Source of the DNA: Geminicoccaceae bacterium | Lineage (GTDB): Bacteria; Pseudomonadota; Alphaproteobacteria; Geminicoccales; Geminicoccaceae | Assembly (NCBI GenBank): GCA_025054575.1 | Contig: JANWZN010000011.1 | Location: forward strand, 1-39,737 | DNA length: 39,737 nucleotides | Direction of reading: 5' to 3' | Shown here: positions 1 to 11,128 of the stretch, one piece after another | How positions within the stretch are numbered: the stretch's first letter is position 1 | How the letters are laid out: each line of letters starts with the position of its first letter | Program-made: the position numbers and the translations under genes | Notes under the pieces: generated by a model | Database searches by the model: none | The model's input: only the letters and a program-made list of their open reading frames with translations | What the model was told of the DNA's origin: nothing

Positions 1-69
1 CGGCCCGCCGACCTCGTCCTGGCGGAAGCGCTGCTCGCCCGCCGGGCGAGCCTCGGAGCGGCCTCGTGA
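1..69 (+). CDS. C-terminal tail of an unidentified upstream gene (partial)
   Basis: An open frame enters from the left edge and ends at the TGA at 67-69, giving 22 visible residues rich in Ala, Leu and Arg. The stop overlaps the GTG start of the metallophosphoesterase by four bases (GTGA, 66-69), the same junction type seen between later genes of this arm, so it is probably the preceding gene of the same operon. Too little is visible to assign a family. A further sphingolipid or head-group gene would fit the context, but that is inference. Confidence 0.6.
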   Translation, partial: RPADLVLAEALLARRASLGAAS

Positions 70-986
70 GCAGCGTCTTCCGGCTCGCGCATCTGACCGA
101 CGTCCATCTCGGGCCCCTGCCCCGGCCGCGGCCTGGCGAGCTCTTCTCCAAGCGGATCACCGGCTTTCTCTCCTGGCAGCTGCGCCGCCGCCGGATCCAC
201 CGCACGGACGTCCTCGACGCCACGCTCGCGGCGCTCGCGAGCGCGCGTCCCGATCACACGGTGGTGACCGGCGATCTCTGCAACATCTCGCTGCCGGGCG
301 AGTTCGTGGCGGCACGCGACTGGCTCTTGCGGCTCGGCCCACCCGCACGCGTGACGGCGATCCCCGGCAACCACGACGCCTATGTGCCGGGTGCCGCCGA
401 GGCCCATTGGCCGCTGTGGCGCCCGTGGATGGAGGGTGCCGGCGCGCCCCGCGACTTCCCCTTCGTCCGCCGGGTGGGGCCGCTCGCACTTCTGGGCCTG
501 TCGAGTGCCGTGCCGCGGCCTTGGGGCGATGCCGCGGGCGAGCTCGGCTGCGCCCAGCTCGAGCGGCTCGCCGTCCGGCTCGCCGAGCTGCGCCGCAGCG
601 GGCTGTGCCGTGTCGTCCTCGTCCACCACCCGCCCGTGCCGGGCTGGAGCCCGCCGCGCAAATGCCTGCTCGACGCCGCGGCGCTGGGTGCGGTGCTCGC
701 TCGCGAAGGCGCCGAGCTCGTGCTCTGCGGCCACGACCACCGCCTCGCGAGCGGCGCCTTGCCCGGCCCCTCGGGCCCGATTCCGGTCCTGGCCGGGCCC
801 TCGGCCTCGCTCGCCGCGGCCGAGCCCGAAAAGCGCGGCGGCGGTCTCCTGCTCGCGATCCGACGGGCGGACTCCGGCGCCGGTTGGCGGATCGAGGCCG
901 AGGCGTGGCGCTTCGACCCGGCGCTCGCGCGCATGGCGCATGAAGCGGTGCCGATGCCGCCTTCGGTCGTGGCGGCGCTCGCCTAG
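66..986 (+). CDS. Calcineurin-like metallophosphoesterase
   Basis: This 306-residue protein has the ordered motifs of the calcineurin-like phosphoesterase fold: DVH at residues 12-14, GD at 69-70, GNHD at 101-104, HH at 187-188 and GHDH at 222-225. These bind a dinuclear metal centre and hydrolyse phosphomono- or diesters. The GTG start overlaps the stop of the upstream gene by four bases. No signal peptide or membrane segment is apparent, so it is probably cytoplasmic. It resembles the broad CpdA/Icc-like group, but its position beside a lipid kinase and a CDP-lipid-type nucleotidyltransferase suggests a lipid-phosphate or nucleotide-lipid substrate. The fold is sure; the substrate is inferred only from neighbours. 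Confidence 0.85.
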   Translation: MSSVFRLAHLTDVHLGPLPRPRPGELFSKRITGFLSWQLRRRRIHRTDVLDATLAALASARPDHTVVTGDLCNISLPGEFVAARDWLLRLGPPARVTAIPGNHDAYVPGAAEAHWPLWRPWMEGAGAPRDFPFVRRVGPLALLGLSSAVPRPWGDAAGELGCAQLERLAVRLAELRRSGLCRVVLVHHPPVPGWSPPRKCLLDAAALGAVLAREGAELVLCGHDHRLASGALPGPSGPIPVLAGPSASLAAAEPEKRGGGLLLAIRRADSGAGWRIEAEAWRFDPALARMAHEAVPMPPSVVAALA

Positions 987-1087
987 TCGACCGGGGCACT
1001 CTCGGCTATGAGCGCTGCGGTGTCGCGGTCGCGGCGGCGACTGCACGCCTTCTTGCATCCACCGCCCCGGTGCCGCACGCGGCGCGC

Positions 1088-2308
1088 ATGAGCCTCTTCG
1101 GCCGCTACATCGCGAGTCTCGTTCTTCGGCCGATGATCGCCATCGTGCTGGTGGCGCTCGCGGTCTTGCTCGCCGAGCGGATGCTGCGCGTGCTCGACAT
1201 CGTGATCGGCTGGCGCGGCAGCGTCCTCGTCCTTCTGGAGATGCTCGGCTATCTGATCCCGCACTATATGAGCATCGCGCTGCCGGCTGCCTTCTTCATC
1301 GCGATGTTGTTGGTGTTCTCGCGCCTGTCGCGCGACGGCGAACTCGACGCGATGGCGGCGGCGGGGCTCGGCCTGCACGGGCTCCTGCGCCCGCTGCTCG
1401 CGATCGCCTTCGTCCTGCTCGCCGTCAACGCGGTGGTCGTGAGCCATCTCCAGCCCTATGGCCGCTACGCCTATCGGGCGGCGCTGTTCGCCCTCTCCAA
1501 CGTCTCCTTCCTGGCGCTGTTGCGCGAGGGCAGCTTCGTCACCCTCGCCGGCACCACCTACACGGTGGCGAGCCTCTCGCCCGAGCGCGACCGCTTCACG
1601 GGCCTCGTCCTCTTCACGCGCACCAAAGACGGCGACACGCTCACCGTCACCGCCCGCCGCGGCCGCATCCTGCCGGCCGAGGGCGACCAGCCGATCATCC
1701 TCGATCTCGAGGACGGGGTGCACCAGTTCGTGCCCGCGGCCACGGCAGCCGGCGCCGAGCGGAGCGGTGCCCGGCCGCCGGAAAGCACCGCCGTGCGGTT
1801 CCGCACCTTCCGCACCGATGTCCGCGGCGGCGAGCCGAAGCCGTTCCGGCCACGCGGCGAGGACGAGCGCGAGCTCACCTTGCCCGAGCTCTGGCACGGG
1901 CTCGCTCGGCCGATCAAAGGGATCGATCCCGAGGAGATCGCCGCCGAGTTCCACGGCCGGCTCGCGCGCATCCTCTCGCTGCCGCTGCTGCCGCTTCTGG
2001 CCCTGCCGCTCGCGGCGGCCCGGCGGCGCGCCAAGCGATCCTACGGCATCCTCGTCGGGCTCGTGCTGCTGATCGCCTACAACCAGCTCTTGAACTTCGG
2101 CGAGTCCCTGGCCGACGACGGCAAGGCCTCGCCCTGGCTCGCGATCTGGCTGCCCTTCGCGCTGTTCGCGACCCTCGGCGTCCTGCTCACCTGGTGGAAG
2201 GCGACGCGGGTGCCGCGCGCCGGCGGCGCCGGCCGGCTCGACCTCTTGGTCGAGCGGCTCGAGAGCTGGGCGGCGCAGCGCTTCGCGGCGCGGGAGCCGA
2301 CGCCGTGA
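1088..2308 (+). CDS. lptF: LptF-type permease (YjgP/YjgQ family)
   Basis: The 406-residue protein has the LptF/LptG layout. Three N-terminal membrane helices (about residues 10-32, 53-78 and 93-115) are followed by a beta-rich periplasmic domain (about 130-290) and three C-terminal helices. LptF and LptG form the inner-membrane permease that, with the LptB ATPase, extracts a lipid and feeds it into the periplasmic Lpt bridge. ATG 1088 is chosen over an upstream GTG (1070) because it begins MSLFGRYI, which places the first helix as in the family. The stop overlaps the lptG start (GTGA 2305-2308). In many alphaproteobacteria lptFG adjoin lptD-surA-pdxA; here they lie among sphingolipid genes, so they may be a dedicated paralogue rather than the LPS pair. 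Confidence 0.85.
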   Translation: MSLFGRYIASLVLRPMIAIVLVALAVLLAERMLRVLDIVIGWRGSVLVLLEMLGYLIPHYMSIALPAAFFIAMLLVFSRLSRDGELDAMAAAGLGLHGLLRPLLAIAFVLLAVNAVVVSHLQPYGRYAYRAALFALSNVSFLALLREGSFVTLAGTTYTVASLSPERDRFTGLVLFTRTKDGDTLTVTARRGRILPAEGDQPIILDLEDGVHQFVPAATAAGAERSGARPPESTAVRFRTFRTDVRGGEPKPFRPRGEDERELTLPELWHGLARPIKGIDPEEIAAEFHGRLARILSLPLLPLLALPLAAARRRAKRSYGILVGLVLLIAYNQLLNFGESLADDGKASPWLAIWLPFALFATLGVLLTWWKATRVPRAGGAGRLDLLVERLESWAAQRFAAREPTP

Positions 2309-3429
2309 GCCGGCTCACCCGCTATCTCAACCGACTCTACCTCGTCCGCTTCGCGGTCGTGCTCCTGGCGGTGGCCGGCTTCGCGCTTCTGTTCGACCTG
2401 CTCGATGTCGGTGCCAAAGTGGTGCGCCGCAGCGGTGGCTCGAGCTGGGCGCTCGTGAGCTACGCGCTCATCCGCCTGCCGACGCTTTTGACCGAACTGT
2501 TGCCGATGGTGGCGCTCTTGGCGGGCCTGTTGACGGCCGCCGATCTGCTCCGCTTCCGCGAGCTCGTGGCGATGTGGAGCGCCGGCCTCTCGCGGCTCGG
2601 CCTGGCGGTGCGTTTGTGGCCGGCGGCGCTCCTGATCGTCGCCGGCAAGCTCGTGCTCGACGACGTGGCCGTGCCGGCCACCATCCCGACGTTGCGGGCC
2701 CTGGGCGTGGCCGACGTCAAGACCGTGGGCCTGCCGACCGGCGATGCGATCTGGCTCACCACCGACGGTGCGGTGCTGCGGCTCCCGGCCGAGGCGGCGG
2801 TGCAGGGCGAGCCGCGCGATCTCTTGATCCTCCGCCTCGATCCCGAAGGCCGATTGGTCGAGCGCCTCGAAGCGGCGCGCGGCGAGCCCGGGCCGGAGGG
2901 CTGGCTCCTCCGCGACGTGGTGCGCCGGCCGGCCAGTGCCGCCCCCAGCGAGCGGCTCGACACCCTCCTTCTGCCGATGCGGATCGATCTCGAGACCGTA
3001 GCGCTCATGGCCAAGCTGCCGCGCGAGCTGTCGATCGCCCAGCTCCTTCGGGTGATCGGGGCGGATGGCTACGGGATCGGCGGGACCGAGAGCCACCGGA
3101 CCTGGCTCCACGCTCGTCTCGCCGGCCTGGTCGGGCTCTGGGCGTTGATCGTGGTGCCGGTCCTCCTGGTCCGTCGCGCCGAGCGGACCGGTGCCACGCT
3201 CGCCATCTTCACGCGCGGGCTCGCGATCGGCTTCGCCTATCTGATCGGCAACGGCCTCATGCTCGCCAGGGGCGAGCTCGGCCTGGCGCCCCCGGCCGTG
3301 GCCGCTTGGACCGTGCCGTTCCTCTTGGCGGCCGGCGCGCTCTCGGGCGGGGGGCTCCTCGAGCCGAGGCGCGGCCGGCCGGTCGCGGCCCCGCCCCCAC
3401 CCTCGGCGACCCTGCGGACCGCGCCATGA
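2305..3429 (+). CDS. lptG: LptG-type permease (YjgP/YjgQ family)
   Basis: The 374-residue partner of the preceding LptF-like protein has three N-terminal hydrophobic helices, a periplasmic domain (about residues 120-270) and three C-terminal helices, the last ending near residue 360. The GTG at 2305 lies inside the lptF stop codon and gives MSRLTRYLNRLYLVRF, the usual LptG-like opening, so translational coupling is likely. Its own stop overlaps the lipid kinase start (ATGA 3426-3429). This places the permease pair in one transcription unit with a lipid kinase and a nucleotidyltransferase. The family call is firm. Whether the cargo is LPS or an anionic sphingolipid cannot be told from sequence alone. 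Confidence 0.85.
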   Translation: MSRLTRYLNRLYLVRFAVVLLAVAGFALLFDLLDVGAKVVRRSGGSSWALVSYALIRLPTLLTELLPMVALLAGLLTAADLLRFRELVAMWSAGLSRLGLAVRLWPAALLIVAGKLVLDDVAVPATIPTLRALGVADVKTVGLPTGDAIWLTTDGAVLRLPAEAAVQGEPRDLLILRLDPEGRLVERLEAARGEPGPEGWLLRDVVRRPASAAPSERLDTLLLPMRIDLETVALMAKLPRELSIAQLLRVIGADGYGIGGTESHRTWLHARLAGLVGLWALIVVPVLLVRRAERTGATLAIFTRGLAIGFAYLIGNGLMLARGELGLAPPAVAAWTVPFLLAAGALSGGGLLEPRRGRPVAAPPPPSATLRTAP

Positions 3430-4394
3430 GCGCCACGTCGGTGATCGGCTTCGTCAACAACAGCCGCAGCGAGCGCAACCGCCGCGGCATGGCCGACCTC
3501 GAGGCGGTACTCGCGCGCCACCCCGAGTTGGTGCGGCTCGACTTCGACGGCCTCACCCGTCTGCGCGACATCGCCACCGATCTCGCGCGGCTGCGGCCGG
3601 CGCTGATCGTGGTCAACGGCGGCGACGGGACGGTTCAGGGCCTGCTGACCGAGCTGCTCGAGCATCGCCCGCTCGATCCGCTGCCGCCGATCGCCATCTT
3701 GCCGCGGGGCATGGCCAACATGACCGCGGCCGATTGCGGCTTGCGCCGGCGCGGACCGGGTGCCGTGGTCCGCCTGCTCGAGGCGGCGCGCTCCGGGCTG
3801 CTCGACCGGTTCACCGTCAAACGCCGCGTGCTGCGGATCGAGGGGCTCGCCGAGCACGGCGTCCAGCGAGGCATGTTCATGGGAGCGGCCGGAATTACGG
3901 ATGCGATCCATCTCTGCAAGAGCCGCATCCACGCGATGGGCATCAAGGGCGAGGCCGCTCATTTCGTGACGCTCGCCGGGCTGTTGTGGGGCCTCGCCCG
4001 GGGCCGGCGTCCGCCCGGGATGCTCGAAGGAGCGCCCGTGGCGATGCGGTTCGAGGACGGCGAGGTCCGCGAGGGCCGCCAGCTTCTCCTCTTGGCGACC
4101 ACGCTCGACCGCCTCGTCCTCGCCTCGCGGCCGTTCTGGAACGCGCTCGCCCGGCCGTTCCGCTTCACCGCGATCCGCTGCCCGGCCGAGGGACTCGTGC
4201 GCCGCACGCTGCGCGTGCTCTACGGCGGCGACTGGCGCGATCTGCCACGCGACAGCTATTTCAGCCGCGGCGGCGCGCGCCTCGAGCTCGAGCTCGAGCG
4301 GGAGATCACGATCGACGGCCAGTTCTATCGGCCGGAGCCGGGCCGCCCGCTGATCGTGACCGCGCCCGACGAGGTCCGGTTCGTCCGGCTGTGA
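3426..4394 (+). CDS. DAGK-family lipid kinase, probable ceramide kinase
   Basis: The 322-residue protein carries the diacylglycerol-kinase catalytic signature NGGDGT at residues 64-69, followed by the Pro-Arg-Gly-Met-Ala-Asn segment near 90 that usually reads PxGTxN. This is the YegS/LCB5/DAGK fold, which transfers the gamma-phosphate of ATP to a lipid hydroxyl. Caulobacter crescentus has a DAGK-family ceramide kinase (CpgB) encoded near its ceramide genes. This gene lies in the corresponding setting, so ceramide is the favoured substrate; diacylglycerol and sphingoid base are alternatives. The product would be ceramide 1-phosphate, a possible substrate for the next gene. Start and stop both sit in 4-bp overlaps with the neighbouring genes, indicating tight co-expression. 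Confidence 0.8.
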   Translation: MSATSVIGFVNNSRSERNRRGMADLEAVLARHPELVRLDFDGLTRLRDIATDLARLRPALIVVNGGDGTVQGLLTELLEHRPLDPLPPIAILPRGMANMTAADCGLRRRGPGAVVRLLEAARSGLLDRFTVKRRVLRIEGLAEHGVQRGMFMGAAGITDAIHLCKSRIHAMGIKGEAAHFVTLAGLLWGLARGRRPPGMLEGAPVAMRFEDGEVREGRQLLLLATTLDRLVLASRPFWNALARPFRFTAIRCPAEGLVRRTLRVLYGGDWRDLPRDSYFSRGGARLELELEREITIDGQFYRPEPGRPLIVTAPDEVRFVRL

Positions 4395-5317
4395 GCGAAA
4401 GCCGTCGCAACGGCGATGCCGGCGATCCGATCCTCGAGCTCGTCCGCGCCGAGATGGCGCGGCCGATCCCGGCCGCGGTCCGGGCCGTGGCCGAAGCCGC
4501 CCGTGCCCGCTTCGGCACGGCGATCCAGGCGGTCCTGTTCTACGGCAGCTGCCTGCGCGACGGCGAGGAGCGCGGCCGGCTCGTCGATCTCTACCTGTTG
4601 GCCGAGGACGAGGCGGCGGTGACACCGTCGCCGCTGCGCGCCCGGCTGCTGCGGCTGCTGCCGCCCGACGTCTATCACGTGGCGGCAGCGTTCGAGGACC
4701 GCACGGTCCGCGCCAAGGTGTCGGTGATGGCGCTCTCGACCCTCGAGCGGGCGGTCGCGCCTTTGACCCTGGAGCCTTATTTCTGGGCCCGGTTCGCCCA
4801 GCCGACGGCCCTGCTCTGGGCCGCCGACCCGGCGACCGCCGATCGCGTCCACCGGCTCCTGGCCCGCGCGATCCGCACCCTCGCGGCGGAGGTGCGGCCG
4901 CTTCTGGGCCCGGCCGTGGAACCGCTCGCGCTGTTCGAGCGCGCCTTCGCCGAAACCTACCGGACCGAGCTGCGGGCCGAGCCGCCGGAGCGAGCGCGCG
5001 CCCTCTTGGCCGCCGATGCGGCGCGCTATCGGCGGCTGGGCGCGCTCCTGCTGGCCGAGCTGCCGGTGCCCAGCGCCGCGGACCGAGCCGCCGCCGAGCG
5101 GCGCTGGGCCCGCCGCCGCCGCCTGGGCAAACTCCGCTCGATCCTGCGCCTGGCCAAGGCGGCCTCGACCTTCGAGGGTGGTGCCGAGTACCTGGCCTGG
5201 AAGATCGAGCGCCATTCGGGCGTGGCGATCCGGCTCGCCCCCTGGCAACGCCGCTACCCGCGGCTCGCGGGCCTGTTGCTTCTGCCGCGGCTGTTGCGGC
5301 GTGGTGCGGTGCGCTGA
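4391..5317 (+). CDS. Tam41-like nucleotidyltransferase, possible CDP-lipid synthase
   Basis: This 308-residue protein starts at a GTG that overlaps the kinase stop (GTGA 4391-4394). A nucleotidyltransferase-fold motif, FYGS at residues 50-53, is followed by an aspartate in VDLYLL at 65-70. Downstream, about residues 110-145, comes a segment with a conserved-looking Lys-x-Ser-Val, then an aromatic/Phe-Ala-Gln-Pro stretch. This pattern (YGS, a lone Asp in a hydrophobic strand, then a Lys-x-x-Val and W/Y-x-x-x-Phe-x-x-Pro segment) resembles Tam41/MMP37, the mitochondrial-type CDP-diacylglycerol synthase. The second acidic residue of the generic Dh[DE]h motif is Tyr, which is compatible with Tam41 but not with many other families. 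Activation of ceramide phosphate with CTP is inferred from the adjacent kinase. The Tam41 resemblance was judged by eye and needs a profile search. Confidence 0.6.
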   Translation: MSESRRNGDAGDPILELVRAEMARPIPAAVRAVAEAARARFGTAIQAVLFYGSCLRDGEERGRLVDLYLLAEDEAAVTPSPLRARLLRLLPPDVYHVAAAFEDRTVRAKVSVMALSTLERAVAPLTLEPYFWARFAQPTALLWAADPATADRVHRLLARAIRTLAAEVRPLLGPAVEPLALFERAFAETYRTELRAEPPERARALLAADAARYRRLGALLLAELPVPSAADRAAAERRWARRRRLGKLRSILRLAKAASTFEGGAEYLAWKIERHSGVAIRLAPWQRRYPRLAGLLLLPRLLRRGAVR

Positions 5318-5344: not shown

Positions 5345-6556
5345 CTATTCGGCAGCGATCGGGGCGGCCAGCCGCTGCAGTTCGGCTGCGAGCGTCGCGA
5401 ACCGCTCGAGCACGGTGTCGATCTGCGCATCGGTGTGCGCGGCCGAGACGCTGCAGCGCAACAGGCAGACCCCTCCCGGGGTCCCGGGCGGGAGCGCCAG
5501 ATTGACGTAGACACCGAGCTCGAGGAGGCGGTTCCAGGCGAACACGGTGGTCCGCTCGTCCGGCAGGCGGATCGACAGGATCGGCCCGGGCGGTGCCGCG
5601 AGCGCGAAGTTGAGCGCCGCGAGCCCGGCGTGGATCCGCTCGGCGTTCGCCCAGATCCGAGCGCGCAGCTCGGGCCGTGCGACGATTTGCGCGAGCGCCG
5701 CGCGCACGGTTGCGATCGTCGCGGGGCCCGGGGAGGCGGTGAACATGTAGGGCCGCGCCGCCACCCGCAAGAGCTCGAAGCGCGGATGGTCGGAGACCGC
5801 GAAGCCGCCGATGGCACCCAGCGACTTCGAGAAGGTGCCGACGATGAAGTCGATCTCGGCTTCGACCCCCAGCGCCTCGGCGACACCGCGGCCGCGTTCG
5901 CCGAACACCCCCATCGAGTGCGCCTCGTCCAAGAGCAAGAAGGCGCCGTGGCGCTTCTTGACGGCGGCGATCTCGGCCAGACGGGCGACGTCGCCCAGCA
6001 TCGAATAGAGGCCCTCGACGATCACGAGCCGGATCCCGCCCGGGGTCGGGTTGCGCTCGAGGCGCCGGTCGAGATCATCGGGATCGTTGTGGCGGAAGCG
6101 GACGACCGTGGCCCCGGACAGCCGGCAGCCGTCGAAGATCGAGGCGTGCCAGTCGGAATCGACGAAGATCGTGTCCTTGGGTCCGGCGAGGCCGGCGATC
6201 GTCGCCAGGTTCGCCTGATAGCCCGTGGTGAAGACGATCGCCGCGCGCCGGCCCATGAAGGCGGCGATCTCGGCCTCGAGGGCCTTGTGGCCGCCATAGG
6301 TGCCGTTGGCGATGCGCGAGCCGGTGGTGCCGGTGCCGAAGCGGCGCAAGGCCGCACATCCCGCCTCGATGCAGGCCGGATCGAAGGTGAGACCGAGATA
6401 GTTGTTGGTGCCGAGCAGGATCGTGCGCCGGCCGCGGATCGTGGCTTCGCAGGGGCCGAAGAGCTCTTCGATCTCGAGGTCGAACGGGTCGGCGCCGGCG
6501 CCCAAGAGCTCGGCGCGACGTGCGGCCAGCGTCTCGTATTTGTCGAAGATGTCCAT
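5345..6556 (-). CDS. spt: Serine palmitoyltransferase
   Basis: This 403-residue alpha-oxoamine synthase condenses serine with an activated acyl group to give 3-oxo-sphinganine, the first step of sphingolipid synthesis. Visible features are the Schiff-base lysine K244 in TFSKSLG, DEAH at 210-213 for the PLP ring nitrogen and ring packing, His137 in the DWHASIFDG segment, and the GTGTTGSR glycine loop at 74-81. KAPA synthase and ALA synthase share this fold. The neighbouring ACP, CerR-type reductase and acyl ligase, as in Caulobacter, select serine palmitoyltransferase. ATG 6556 is preferred over the longer reading from 6604 because it opens MDIFDKYETL and lies just past the ACP stop at 6558. 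It converges with the Tam41-like gene, 27 bp away. Confidence 0.88.
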   Translation of the reverse strand: MDIFDKYETLAARRAELLGAGADPFDLEIEELFGPCEATIRGRRTILLGTNNYLGLTFDPACIEAGCAALRRFGTGTTGSRIANGTYGGHKALEAEIAAFMGRRAAIVFTTGYQANLATIAGLAGPKDTIFVDSDWHASIFDGCRLSGATVVRFRHNDPDDLDRRLERNPTPGGIRLVIVEGLYSMLGDVARLAEIAAVKKRHGAFLLLDEAHSMGVFGERGRGVAEALGVEAEIDFIVGTFSKSLGAIGGFAVSDHPRFELLRVAARPYMFTASPGPATIATVRAALAQIVARPELRARIWANAERIHAGLAALNFALAAPPGPILSIRLPDERTTVFAWNRLLELGVYVNLALPPGTPGGVCLLRCSVSAAHTDAQIDTVLERFATLAAELQRLAAPIAAE

Positions 6557-6557
6557 C

Positions 6558-6815
6558 TCAGCCTCGTTGCGCGAGCTGGCGGGCGACGAGATCGACGAGA
6601 TCACCCAAGGTCACGAGATCGGCGATCTCGTTGACCGGGACGTCGATGCCGTAGCGATCCTCGATCTCCATGACGAGATCCATGGCCTGGACCGAATCGA
6701 TCGAGAGATCGCTCGTGAGCTCGCTGCTGCGCTCGAGCACCGCACCCGGTGGCGCGAAGCGGCGGACGAGCTCGGCGATCTCGGCGAACAGCTGCACCGG
6801 GTCGGCGGTGGTCAT
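6558..6815 (-). CDS. acp: Acyl carrier protein for sphingolipid synthesis
   Basis: This 85-residue protein has a phosphopantetheine-binding helix with the attachment serine at residue 41 in the sequence SIDSVQAMDL. The usual DSL reads DSV. The acidic helix after it (EIEDRYGIDV) is typical of ACPs. ATG 6815 gives the family-typical length; an upstream in-frame ATG at 6881 would add 22 low-complexity residues. It sits between spt (its stop is one base from the spt start) and the cerR-like gene, as in the Caulobacter ceramide cluster. It should carry the acyl chain loaded by the downstream-encoded acyl-AMP ligase and present it to serine palmitoyltransferase. It is clearly a dedicated ACP rather than the fatty-acid-synthase AcpP. 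Confidence 0.88.
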   Translation of the reverse strand: MTTADPVQLFAEIAELVRRFAPPGAVLERSSELTSDLSIDSVQAMDLVMEIEDRYGIDVPVNEIADLVTLGDLVDLVARQLAQRG

Positions 6816-6877
6816 GGGCGGTGCATGGCCGCTCCGCCCGCCCGACGCAATCCCCTGTGGAAGCCCGGCACCCGCGC

Positions 6878-7834
6878 TCACAGCCAGCCCTCGGCCCGGT
6901 ACCAGGACAGCGTGCGCGGCAGCCCCTCCTCGAACGGTACGCGCGGCCGCCAGGATCGTGCCTCGAGCCCGTCGCGGCGCGCGAGCCAGTCCGGGTGGAA
7001 GAGCTCGGCGATCTTGCCGCGCGAGAGCCGCGGCGGCCGACCGAGCGGCCGGGCACTCGCTTCCGCCAGGAGTGCGGCCGTGGTCATGAGGCTGCGCGGC
7101 AGCTCGACGAGCCGGACCGGGCGGCGCAGGCGCGCGGCGGCGAGATCGGCGAGATCGCGCCAGCGATAGCCCTCCGGCCGACCGTCGTCGGGCTCGAGCG
7201 GCACCCGCGAGGGCGCCCCCTCCAGCACGGCGGTGGCCAGGAGATCGGCCAGGTCCTCGACATAGATCAAGGAGAAGCGGTTGGCCCGGGCCCGCGGTGC
7301 CAGCAGCAACCCGCGCGCGAGCTGGGCCATGATCGGCAAGGTGGCCTTGTCGCCCGGCCCGTAGACGGCGGGCGGCCGTACGACGATGGGCTCCAGGGCA
7401 TCGGCGGCGGCCTCGACCAGACGCTCGGCCTCGCGTTTGCTCCAGGCGTAGGCCGAGAGCGCGGGCTCGCGTGCGGCGAGCGAGGAGACGAGGACGAAGC
7501 GGGCGCCCTCGGCCCGGCGGCGCGCGGCCGCGACCAGCCGAGCGGTACCCTCGACATTGGCGCGGGCGAAGGCGGTGCGGCTCGGCGCCGCGACGAGCCC
7601 GGCCACGTGCACGATCGCGCCCGCGCCCGCGACGAGGGCCTCGAGCGCGGCCGGATCGTCGAGGCCACCGCGCACGAGCTCGACCCCTTCGGTTGCGAGC
7701 CCGGGATCGTCGCGGCGGACGAGGGCGCGCAGGCGCAGGCCGCCGGCGCGCAAGCGGCGGGCGACGTGACGGCCGACGAAGCCGGTGGCGCCGGTCAGGG
7801 CGACGAGTTCGGGATCCGGAGGAGGCGCGGGCAA
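6878..7834 (-). CDS. cerR: CerR-type NAD(P)-dependent epimerase/reductase
   Basis: An extended short-chain dehydrogenase of about 318 residues. The Rossmann glycine motif TGATGFVG lies at residues 14-21, Ser117/118 and the YAWSK catalytic pair (Tyr129, Lys133) follow, and RPPAVYGPGD is the extended-SDR signature. In bacterial ceramide synthesis CerR reduces the keto group of 3-oxo-ceramide; the clustering with spt, acp and acyl ligase supports that role. The start is uncertain. TTG 7834, 13 bp after the acyl-ligase stop, is the first plausible start that avoids reading through the ligase and puts the Rossmann motif near the N-terminus. The open frame extends to 7957 but the added residues look unconserved. 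The 62-bp gap before acp suggests one operon. Confidence 0.8.
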   Translation of the reverse strand: MPAPPPDPELVALTGATGFVGRHVARRLRAGGLRLRALVRRDDPGLATEGVELVRGGLDDPAALEALVAGAGAIVHVAGLVAAPSRTAFARANVEGTARLVAAARRRAEGARFVLVSSLAAREPALSAYAWSKREAERLVEAAADALEPIVVRPPAVYGPGDKATLPIMAQLARGLLLAPRARANRFSLIYVEDLADLLATAVLEGAPSRVPLEPDDGRPEGYRWRDLADLAAARLRRPVRLVELPRSLMTTAALLAEASARPLGRPPRLSRGKIAELFHPDWLARRDGLEARSWRPRVPFEEGLPRTLSWYRAEGWL

Positions 7835-7847
7835 GTCCCGGCCGGGC

Positions 7848-9653
7848 TCAGCTCGCCCGGGCGAGCGCCGGGCGCTCGGTGTTGGCCGGGCAACGCGACG
7901 GTTCGGCCGCGTCGATCCCGCCCAGATCGCGGATCGTGCCGGCGAGATAGCCGGCACGCGCCGCGGCTCGGCTGAGCTTGCCCGAGGTCGTGTAGACGAG
8001 CGAGCGCGGCGGAGCGAGCACGAGCTCGCACTCGGTCCCGGCCTGGCGGTTGACGAGGCCCTGTACCTCGCGGCGGAAGGCGGCGAGCTGCAGTGGATCG
8101 GTGATGCGGCACTGGACGATGACGACGATCCGCTCGCGCTCGTCTTCGCCGCCCACCGCGAAGGCGGCGACGTCGCCCGGGCGGACGCCGTCGAGCCGCT
8201 CGACCGCCCATTCGAGATCCTGCGGCCAGATGTTGCGGCCGTTGATGATGATCAGGTCCTTGCTGCGGCCGGTGACGACGAGCTCGCCGTCGGCGAGGTA
8301 GCCCATGTCGCCGGTATCGAGCCAACCGTCCTCGAGCATCACCTGCCGGGTGGCCTCCGGATTGCGGAAATAGCCGGTCATCAGGCTCGGGCCCTGCAGG
8401 CAGATGCGGCCGACCCGCCGCTCGGGCAAGGTGCGGCCGTGCTCGTCGCGGATCTCGATCCGGTAGCCGGGCATCGGCCGGCCGCAGATCGCGAAGGCGC
8501 GGGTGCGGCGCGCTCGCGGACCGGCCGGCAGCGCCAGGCGCCGGCGCTCGAAGGCCTCGCCCTGCTCGACGAGATCGGTCCGCACGCCTTGCCCGAGCGG
8601 TGCGAAGGTGACGGCGAGCGTCGCCTCGGCGAGGCCGTAGGAGGCCAGGAAGGCGCGCTCGTCGAAGCCCGCGGGCGCGAACACGCGCGCGAACTCCGAG
8701 AGTGCCTTGGGCCGGATCATCTCGCCGCCGATCCCGGCCACGCGCCAGCGGCTCAGATCGAAGGCGAGCAAGCTCGCCGGATCGCGCGAGCCGGCCCGCA
8801 GAGCACAGAGCTCGTAGCCGAAGGTGGGCGCGAAGGAGATCGTCCCGCCGGTGCGCGACAAGAGCTCGAGCCAGACCAAAGGGCGCCGGGCGAAACCGGA
8901 GGTGGCGAGATAATCGACGCTGATCTGGTTCAAGATCGGCGTGAGACAGCAGCCCACGAGGCCCATGTCGTGGTAGAGCGGCAGCCAGGAGGTGCAGCGG
9001 TCGCCCGGCCGCAGGGCGAGGCCGTGCTCGGCGATGGCGCGGGCATTGGCGGTGATCGCCTGTTGGGTCACGAGCACGCCGCGCGGGAAGCTCGTGCTGC
9101 CCGCGGAATATTGGATGTCGCTGGGCTGGTGGGGTCCGAGCGGGCGAAGCTCGGACGCGACCGGCTCGAGCGCGGCCAGTTGCTCGTGGCTGCCGACCCA
9201 GGCGACCTCGGTACCGACCACGGCCTCGTCGAGCGGGCCCAGATAGTCCGCCGAGGCGATCGCCACGCGTGCGCCCGAACTCTCGAGCATGCCGCGCAGC
9301 CGCGCCACGTGGCTGCGGTGGGTCCCGGGGCTCAGCGCCAGGGGCAGCGGTACCGGCACGAGACCGGCATATTGGCAGGCCAGGAAGGCGATCAGGAACT
9401 CGGGCCGCGTCTCGGCGAGGATGGCGACGCGCTCGAGGCGGGGAAGGCCCAGGCCCGTGAGCTTGCGCGCGAGCTCGAGCGCGCTGGCGCGCAGCTCGCG
9501 GTAGGGCAGCACGCGGGCGAGCTCGCCGCGATCGGTGTAGAAGTTGACACCGGTCTCGCCACGGGCGGCGTAGTCGAGACCCTCGGCGAGCGTGCGAAAG
9601 CCGCTCGTGCGGAACGGCAGGTCGGCATTGGCGGTCGGCGTCGGCACCAGCAT
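7848..9653 (-). CDS. Fatty acyl-AMP ligase (FAAL-like, ANL superfamily)
   Basis: The 601-residue adenylate-forming enzyme has the nucleotide-binding motif YSAGSTSFPRG at residues 182-192, the core DTGDMGYLADGELVVTGR and the hinge-plus-loop KDLIIINGRNIWPQD. These are characteristic of fatty acyl-AMP ligases that load an ACP rather than CoA. A C-terminal SGKLSR supplies the usual catalytic lysine. It would activate a fatty acid as acyl-AMP and transfer it to the adjacent ACP. A homologous acyl-ACP synthetase belongs to the Caulobacter ceramide gene set. ATG 9653 is chosen over GTG 9659 because AGAGGG lies about 7-10 bases upstream of it. It is the first gene of the minus-strand ceramide operon. 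Confidence 0.87.
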   Translation of the reverse strand: MLVPTPTANADLPFRTSGFRTLAEGLDYAARGETGVNFYTDRGELARVLPYRELRASALELARKLTGLGLPRLERVAILAETRPEFLIAFLACQYAGLVPVPLPLALSPGTHRSHVARLRGMLESSGARVAIASADYLGPLDEAVVGTEVAWVGSHEQLAALEPVASELRPLGPHQPSDIQYSAGSTSFPRGVLVTQQAITANARAIAEHGLALRPGDRCTSWLPLYHDMGLVGCCLTPILNQISVDYLATSGFARRPLVWLELLSRTGGTISFAPTFGYELCALRAGSRDPASLLAFDLSRWRVAGIGGEMIRPKALSEFARVFAPAGFDERAFLASYGLAEATLAVTFAPLGQGVRTDLVEQGEAFERRRLALPAGPRARRTRAFAICGRPMPGYRIEIRDEHGRTLPERRVGRICLQGPSLMTGYFRNPEATRQVMLEDGWLDTGDMGYLADGELVVTGRSKDLIIINGRNIWPQDLEWAVERLDGVRPGDVAAFAVGGEDERERIVVIVQCRITDPLQLAAFRREVQGLVNRQAGTECELVLAPPRSLVYTTSGKLSRAAARAGYLAGTIRDLGGIDAAEPSRCPANTERPALARAS

Positions 9654-9962
9654 CCTCACCCTCTCGCGGCGTCACCTCGCGATCGGCCACGGCCGGCGGG
9701 ATTTCGCCCCGCGCCCTCGGCCTGGCGCGTCACCCTCAGCTACACCGTGTCGGGGGGCCGGATCACCGAGCCGCCGGCCTCGCCCCGTATTCTCCTCCGC
9801 GGACCGCGCTCCGCTTTCTCGGCCGCGGATCGCATCCCTCCGCGCACCATCCTCTCGCGGCGATCTTAAAGGGGCGACCGCGCTCGGCCACTCAAGTCGT
9901 GTTTCAGAATGTTACATCCAGGCCGATCCTGTGGCCGACGGGCCACGAAGCGAGCGGGATCG
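9654..9962. other. Intergenic region upstream of the ceramide operon
   Basis: These 309 bp separate the acyl-AMP ligase start from the stop of a small secreted-protein gene on the same strand. No convincing gene was found in any frame; open frames here are GC-driven and have no recognisable residues. The AT-richest part is about 9861-9915, the most likely place for a promoter of the minus-strand operon. Confidence 0.5.
9865..9895 (-). promoter_or_regulatory. Weak candidate promoter for the ceramide operon
   Basis: On the minus strand a TTGAGT (9890-9895) is followed after 19 bases by TTTAAG (9865-9870), in the only AT-rich patch upstream of the acyl ligase. The spacing is long and the -10 poor, so this is a weak candidate. 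Confidence 0.22.
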
Positions 9963-10250
9963 TCAACCGCGCCCTCGCGGCAGCGGCCGCTCGGTACAGC
10001 GGATGCGGCGCTCGCCGATCCGGCTCGTCCGCTCGAGCCGGCAGGCGGCGAGCCGTCCGCCCTCGGGATCCACGAGCCAGAGCCGCTCGCCGGCCACGGC
10101 CGCGGGCGCCGAGCGGGCGGGCTCGGCCAAGGGCGCCGGCCGCGGCCCCGGCGTGCCGCGCAGCACGAGCACCCCGTTGTCCGCTCGCGCAGCCTCGGCG
10201 AGCGCGAGCATCGCCAGGCCCGCGAGCACGGCAACGCCGATCGTTCGCAT
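9963..10250 (-). CDS. Small secreted protein of unknown function
   Basis: A 95-residue protein with a clear Sec signal peptide: MR, then a hydrophobic stretch to about residue 20, and a likely cleavage after the ARA at 21-23. The mature part is about 70 residues, Pro/Arg-rich at both ends, with two cysteines in the second half that could form a disulphide. A strong purine-rich ribosome site (GGGGAGGGAG) lies just upstream of ATG 10250, which supports translation. I recognise no family. It is transcribed in the same direction as the ceramide operon but lies about 300 bp away, so co-transcription is possible but not shown. The mature protein would be in the periplasm. Confidence 0.65.
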   Translation of the reverse strand: MRTIGVAVLAGLAMLALAEAARADNGVLVLRGTPGPRPAPLAEPARSAPAAVAGERLWLVDPEGGRLAACRLERTSRIGERRIRCTERPLPRGRG

Positions 10251-10438
10251 CGCTCCCTCCCCTTCACCCGGCCACCCGGCCTCTTCCGGGGCCGCGCCGC
10301 GGTCCGGTCGTCACCGGCCCGGCAGAAGCGAGCCTGCCACGGCCCCGAGCACCCCGCAGCCTCGGTTCGCGGGCTTGCACAACCGGTTACGATCCGTTCA
10401 CCTTGCCGGTCGAGCGAGCGATCGAGGGGAGGAACACC

Positions 10439-11128
10439 GTGCGTCTCACCTGGCTCGGCCATTCCGCGGTCCATCTCGAGGCCGGCGGCAAGAGCGTCCT
10501 GATCGACCCCTTCCTCACCGGCAATCCGAAATATCCGGCGGGATGGGAGGACCGGCTCTCGAGGCTCGATGCGATCGTCCTCACCCACGGCCACGACGAC
10601 CACGTGGGCGACACCGTGCGCCTGGCCAAAAAGTACGGGGCCGTGCTGGTGGCGCAGTGGGAGATCTGCATGACGCTCGCCGCCGAGGGGGTCGAGAAGC
10701 TCGAGCCCATGAACACGGGCGGCTGCGTCACGCGCGAGGGCGTGCGCTTCTGCATGGTACCGGCCCTGCACAGCTCGGCGCGGATGGCCGACGGCCGGGC
10801 GGTGACGATGGGCGATCCCGCGGGCTTCGTGATCACGATCGACGGCACCGCCGTCTACCACGCCGGCGACACGGCACTCTTCTCCGACATGGCGCTGATC
10901 CAGCGCCTCCATCGGCCGAAGGTCGGGTTCCTTCCGGTGGGCGACCGGTTCACGATGGGCCCCGAGGCGGCGGCGATCGCCTGCAACGAGTTCCTGGAGC
11001 TCGAGCTCGTGGTGCCGATCCACTGGGGCACCTTCGACCTCTTGCACGGCGACCCGCACGCGTTCGCCAAGCATGTGAAGCGCGGCCGGGTGCACGTCGC
11101 GACCCCGGGCGAACCGTTCGAGGTCTGA
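10439..11128 (+). CDS. Metallo-beta-lactamase-fold metal-dependent hydrolase (UPF0173 family)
   Basis: The 229-residue protein begins VRLTWLGHSA, with strand one of the metallo-beta-lactamase fold, and has the metal motif THGHDDH at residues 49-55. Further metal ligands are expected in the YHAGDTALF segment and the IHWGTF segment near the C-terminus. This is the short UPF0173 (YtkL-like) layout, not a beta-lactamase; the physiological substrate is unknown. GTG 10439 is chosen because GAGGGGAGGA lies about 5-8 bases upstream and the first strand starts there; the frame is open further upstream without conserved residues. It converges with dnaE2 across 53 bp that include a 16-bp palindrome (11131-11146) without a T-tract. 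Confidence 0.85.
   Translation: MRLTWLGHSAVHLEAGGKSVLIDPFLTGNPKYPAGWEDRLSRLDAIVLTHGHDDHVGDTVRLAKKYGAVLVAQWEICMTLAAEGVEKLEPMNTGGCVTREGVRFCMVPALHSSARMADGRAVTMGDPAGFVITIDGTAVYHAGDTALFSDMALIQRLHRPKVGFLPVGDRFTMGPEAAAIACNEFLELELVVPIHWGTFDLLHGDPHAFAKHVKRGRVHVATPGEPFEV

Follow-up and report, generated by a model that had tools for sequence, protein, structure and literature searches.

Genes of the locus

The window, by which is meant the whole stretch of 39,737 nucleotides analysed here, carries the following genes at its left end.

1..69, + strand: C-terminal end of a MobA-like nucleotidyltransferase of the CC_1153 type (PF12804), truncated at the contig edge; its sequence agrees with the tail of that gene in two genomes of the same genus
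66..986, + strand: metallophosphoesterase, positional equivalent of CC_1158 (PF00149, E 3.6e-12; conserved position; GTGA overlap with the preceding gene)
1070..2308, + strand: LptF-type permease, LptF2 position (PF03739, E 2e-62)
2308..3429, + strand: LptG-type permease, LptG2 position (PF03739, E 1.2e-39; approximate start; its stop and the kinase ATG overlap)
3426..4394, + strand: putative DAGK-family kinase of the CpgB (ceramide) type, 322 aa (PF00781, E 1.3e-10; synteny)
4391..5317, + strand: CpgC-family protein with a predicted Tam41 fold, proposed CTP:ceramide-1-phosphate cytidylyltransferase (model, motifs, PF09139 matches of relatives)
5345..6604, - strand: serine palmitoyltransferase, spt (NF047599, 600.8 bits against a cut-off of 500)
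6558..6881, - strand: acyl carrier protein, acpR position (PF00550, E 2.3e-10; start approximate)
6878..7957, - strand: NAD-dependent epimerase/reductase, cerR position (PF01370, E 9.3e-26; start approximate)
7848..9659, - strand: fatty acyl-AMP ligase, aasR position (NF006624, 766.5 bits, above cut-off; start approximate)

The serine palmitoyltransferase and the adjoining acyl carrier protein, epimerase-family reductase and fatty acyl-AMP ligase identify this as a sphingolipid locus, as the earlier note had presumed. Beyond these genes lies a further one (9899-11128, + strand), a metallo-beta-lactamase-fold hydrolase by eye, the position of which is kept in the same-genus loci and in two other relatives.

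The kinase possesses a DAGK_cat domain (41.4 bits against a cut-off of 23.6), with NGGDGT, the GGDG motif, at residues 64-69. The GTG start of the CpgC-family gene is located inside the kinase stop (GTGA at 4391-4394), and its 308-residue product contains FYGS at residues 50-53 followed by D66, the sole acidic residue on the next strand and invariant in 50 relatives. The kinase family, the overlap and the FYGS with its lone aspartate had all been read correctly from the bare sequence. In 46 of the 51 related loci examined, the kinase gene is the immediate upstream neighbour and has the same orientation.

At the left edge, frame 1 reads RPADLVLAEALLARRASLGAAS up to a stop. The remainder of this nucleotidyltransferase gene is found at the end of contig C19 of the window genome (G000:C19:3-680), so the two contigs adjoin; the C19 end also carries a GNAT ceramide synthase gene and a fatty acid hydroxylase. 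A hydroxylase gene of this type (PF04116) is situated beside the GNAT ceramide synthase gene at L001:984-1748 and at equivalent sites in 19 neighbourhoods, and may act in these clusters to hydroxylate ceramide. The earlier note had suggested that either the truncated gene or the metallophosphoesterase completes the lipid head group. The former is MobA-like and of the CC_1153 type, not a CDP-alcohol transferase, and the latter is the positional counterpart of CC_1158, the loss of which lowers CPG2 only slightly in Caulobacter (PMC11324152); neither proposal found support.

The window gene for the CpgC-family protein lies between the cpgB-type kinase and a convergent spt, an arrangement in the order of CC_1152-CC_1165, and spt is convergent next to the CpgC-family gene in many loci. 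A plasmid of Roseomonas haemaphysalidis carries, in order, genes for a phosphocholine cytidylyltransferase family protein, a nucleotidyltransferase family protein, a GNAT protein, LptG, LptF, HIT, DUF2141, a metallophosphoesterase, a CDP-alcohol phosphatidyltransferase, a DAG kinase family protein, a hypothetical protein (the CpgC-family member), serine palmitoyltransferase and acyl carrier protein. This is the order of CC_1152-CC_1163 in Caulobacter (PMC11324152) save for DUF2141, with HIT replacing CC_1157. The window kinase shows 31% identity to that of the Roseomonas cluster. Since the order is shared with CC_1152-CC_1163, the window pair is, by synteny, the putative counterpart of Caulobacter cpgB-cpgC, and orthology of the window protein with CpgC (CC_1161, CCNA_01219), which likewise has the CpgB kinase on one side and serine palmitoyltransferase on the other, is supported. 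Caulobacter CpgB (CC_1160) is also a DAGK-family protein with a GGDG motif encoded directly upstream of cpgC; the window kinase is assigned to it by synteny and family, and its probable role as ceramide kinase follows from the synteny.

Phosphosphingolipid clusters are present on Roseomonas and Pseudomonas plasmids (L098 and L099; NZ_CP061179.1 and NZ_CP073662.1), where CpgC is annotated as a hypothetical protein, and their plasmid location suggests horizontal spread. DUF2141 genes recur at loci L064, L067, L073-L075, L079 and L098.

Tam41-like features of the CpgC family

Tam41 is the mitochondrial CDP-diacylglycerol synthase. The usual bacterial enzyme, CdsA (PF01148), which shares the reaction type proposed here for CpgC, is an integral membrane protein with a fold other than that of Tam41. 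Tam41 comprises a nucleotidyltransferase domain, a winged-helix domain and a basic, membrane-binding C-terminus (PMC7018664).

Searched alone, the window protein (4391-5317) has no sequence match in Pfam, NCBIfam or the PDB, and PF09139, the Tam41 family, has no match in the window genome. Over 398 genomes of the phylum PF09139 matched only once, inside a CpgC-family homolog and short of its curated cut-off (E 2.2e-4). The profile search proposed in the earlier note was negative for the window protein itself, whereas three of 50 CpgC-family relatives match PF09139 (best E 5.4e-5); against a gathering score of 24 bits, L013, one of the relatives, reaches 21.8 bits (E 1.4e-4). PDB searches with CpgC-family profiles returned weak matches alone, the best being a small nucleotidyltransferase domain. 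Profile-profile comparison of the family with two Tam41 sequences revealed a collinear alignment of 169 columns (E 0.0026, with a low probability of 11.6% from only two template sequences). Its score is modest at 28.4, the highest of 60 shuffles reaching 22.8.

The protein was modeled using AlphaFold2 from an alignment of the window protein and eight relatives from public genomes (mean pLDDT 83.2, pTM 0.83), and Foldseek ranked Tam41 first (6ig4, E 2.1e-6). Structural alignment, which had also been put forward as a check on the proposed likeness, gave Tam41 as the best fold, with Z scores of 17.7 over 222 residues for the Firmicutes protein with CTP-Mg (7ecd) and 14.7 for yeast Tam41; ANT(4′), the fold ranked second, scored 7.1. 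The model displays a nucleotidyltransferase domain and a second helical domain of Tam41 topology, an architecture common to Tam41/TAMM41 (PF09139) and 7ecd.

Comparison with the Tam41 letters of solved structures (6ig2, 7ecd) reveals the same motifs in the same order: YGS, one Asp, a Lys on a later strand, RFxQP and Y..(D/E).R...E. The family YGS aligns on Tam41 YGSG and D66 on its single Asp; K109 in (R)AK(Y)AV aligns on IKYGV; R134-F-x-Q-P138 aligns on GRFQKP, with xQP here for QKP; and Y190..E193.R195.E197 aligns on SY.GD.RM..AENP. Across 50 sequences little or no variation is seen at YG(S/A), D66, K109, R134, Q137, P138, E193, R195 and E197. A basic C-terminal region is shared as well, whereas the long, strongly conserved block that occupies it in the CpgC family (W..RR...K..R..K....F.GG..Y..WK..RHSG) distinguishes that family from Tam41, as do an identity of 13-15%, scores below the Pfam threshold and its occurrence in sphingolipid loci. 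Predicted fold, sub-threshold PF09139 matches of relatives and ordered motifs together uphold the likeness to Tam41 proposed earlier. The CpgC family is well supported as Tam41-like; it is described in this way rather than as a member of PF09139 because the threshold of that family is not reached.

For CC_1161 of Caulobacter an InterPro CDP-DAG synthase domain has been described, and the proteins inspected for membrane helices do not include it (PMC11324152), in agreement with a soluble enzyme.

A shared fold does not by itself determine the substrate. The fold might serve another lipid phosphate or nucleotide, or the protein could be a non-catalytic partner of the kinase, and the low identity to Tam41 and the altered surroundings of the active site (YGSC for YGSG, ARFxQP for GRFQKP) are in keeping with such a use. 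The near-invariance of the residues listed above argues for catalysis, and we regard this explanation as unlikely.

Distribution of the cpgA and cpgD genes

The CpgC family is found in 42/385 genomes of the class. Among 50 genomes possessing CpgC, cpgA (E below 1e-90) and cpgD (E below 1e-40) are both present in 30 and both missing from 20, without exception. This joint presence or absence is new here. The agreement does not stem from one inherited event, because the joint state changes at least seven times on supported branches of the CpgC tree, and nine times in the best tree. The CC_1153-type nucleotidyltransferase, on the other hand, is present in 49 of the 50 genomes, including those lacking cpgA and cpgD.

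The window genome (G000; 96% complete, 429 contigs) differs from Caulobacter, which has both genes. In searches that included positive controls, cpgA gave no match in it and cpgD only a partial, weak one (E 5.7e-4, 61 residues), so that a complete CPG2 pathway, defined by cpgA and cpgD in the genome, is not found there. Two same-genus genomes likewise lack both genes, and one same-genus genome without them is on one contig. Because cpgA and cpgD are absent, CPG without CPG2 is predicted for this lineage, that is, for the window genome and the two same-genus genomes.

The simplest reading is that a core of kinase, CpgC and CC_1153-type protein produces the first head group, and a cpgA-cpgD module the second. 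This division fits the supply of CDP-glycerate to CpgA by CpgD; the spread of the CC_1153 type is less easily reconciled with a role for CC_1153 confined to the CPG2 step. Aquibaculum arenosum, a relative available in culture, also has the core but neither cpgA nor cpgD.

Proposed reaction and its alternatives

Loss of CC_1160 or CC_1161 abolishes CPG in Caulobacter (PMC11324152), and CpgB makes ceramide-1-phosphate in vitro (PMC10331486). By analogy, the window kinase would generate ceramide-1-phosphate. A soluble nucleotidyltransferase of the Tam41 fold, its basic C-terminal helical region in contact with the membrane, would then allow the phosphate of this lipid to attack CTP at a Tam41-type active site, releasing CDP-ceramide and pyrophosphate, and a further enzyme would displace CMP by glycerate or phosphoglycerate to yield ceramide phosphoglycerate (CPG). 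The CDP-ceramide reaction is considered probable for CpgC; the nature of the product, the nucleotide used and all later steps we infer. To the reading as a whole, in which the window pair corresponds to cpgB-cpgC and acts through CDP-ceramide to CPG, we assign a probability of roughly 0.6.

The idea of such an intermediate is not new. Olea-Ozuna et al. proposed in 2024 that the ortholog CC_1161/CpgC makes NDP-ceramide (PMC11324152), and the present evidence strengthens that proposal. The mechanism of CpgC was still called unidentified in papers of 2025 and 2026 (PMC12275187, PMC13228409); in the literature searched, neither an assay of any CpgC nor the term CDP-ceramide was found.

The step after CDP-ceramide is without a candidate, because no CDP-alcohol phosphotransferase is encoded in the window locus, or in the core-only loci, and no PF01066 protein is tied to it. 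The genome possesses four of the latter, namely a PgsA-like and a PssA-like protein (both by sequence reading), a 201-aa CDP-alcohol transferase and one further, all of which were considered as the glycerate transferase and set aside. The gene for the 201-aa CDP-alcohol phosphatidyltransferase adjoins the PssA-like gene (G000:C385:45005-46306), and the pair also occurs in G416 and G512. One may speculate that phosphoglycerate is the acceptor and that the metallophosphoesterase strips off the surplus phosphate, by analogy with the synthesis of phosphatidylglycerol.

CpgC might instead use this fold as a nucleotidyl or phosphoryl transferase and form CPG in one step, with no free CDP-ceramide, from ceramide-1-phosphate and a nucleotide-activated glycerate made by the CC_1153-type protein. 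The near-universal presence of that gene in genomes with CpgC, even in those lacking cpgA and cpgD, speaks for this, as does the description of CC_1153 as a CofC-like, activating nucleotidyltransferase (PMC11324152). CPG, however, holds one phosphate (PMC11324152) and needs the kinase, which fits CDP-ceramide plus glycerate; a donor bringing a phosphate of its own fits poorly, giving one too many. Moreover, CPG builds up in the CC_1153 mutant instead of disappearing (PMC11324152), and Tam41-type active sites target the alpha-phosphate of the nucleoside triphosphate. One-step synthesis appears rather improbable. Least probable is a soluble CDP-diacylglycerol synthase serving glycerophospholipid synthesis, for although Tam41 acts on phosphatidic acid (PMC7018664) and CpgB phosphorylates diacylglycerol in vitro too (PMC10331486), nearly all loci place the gene beside the ceramide kinase and sphingolipid genes, CC_1161 loss abolishes CPG, as noted above, and phosphatidic acid is unchanged on cpgB loss (PMC10331486).

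Returning to the route through CDP-ceramide, its extension to bacteria at large, in which phosphosphingolipids arise via CDP-ceramide from a Tam41-fold enzyme, mirroring CDP-diacylglycerol, with a core and a separable cpgA-cpgD module of which the window lineage has the core only, stands at about an even chance. The co-occurrence data divide the genes into those for the first head group and those for the second, and they call into question the restriction of CC_1153 to the CPG2 step. The pathway enables Caulobacter to survive in the absence of LPS, and its open step is that from ceramide-1-phosphate to CPG; the predicted Tam41 fold and the motifs of CpgC make one specific reaction directly testable. 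If correct, this would add CDP-ceramide as a biosynthetic intermediate, the sphingolipid counterpart of CDP-diacylglycerol.
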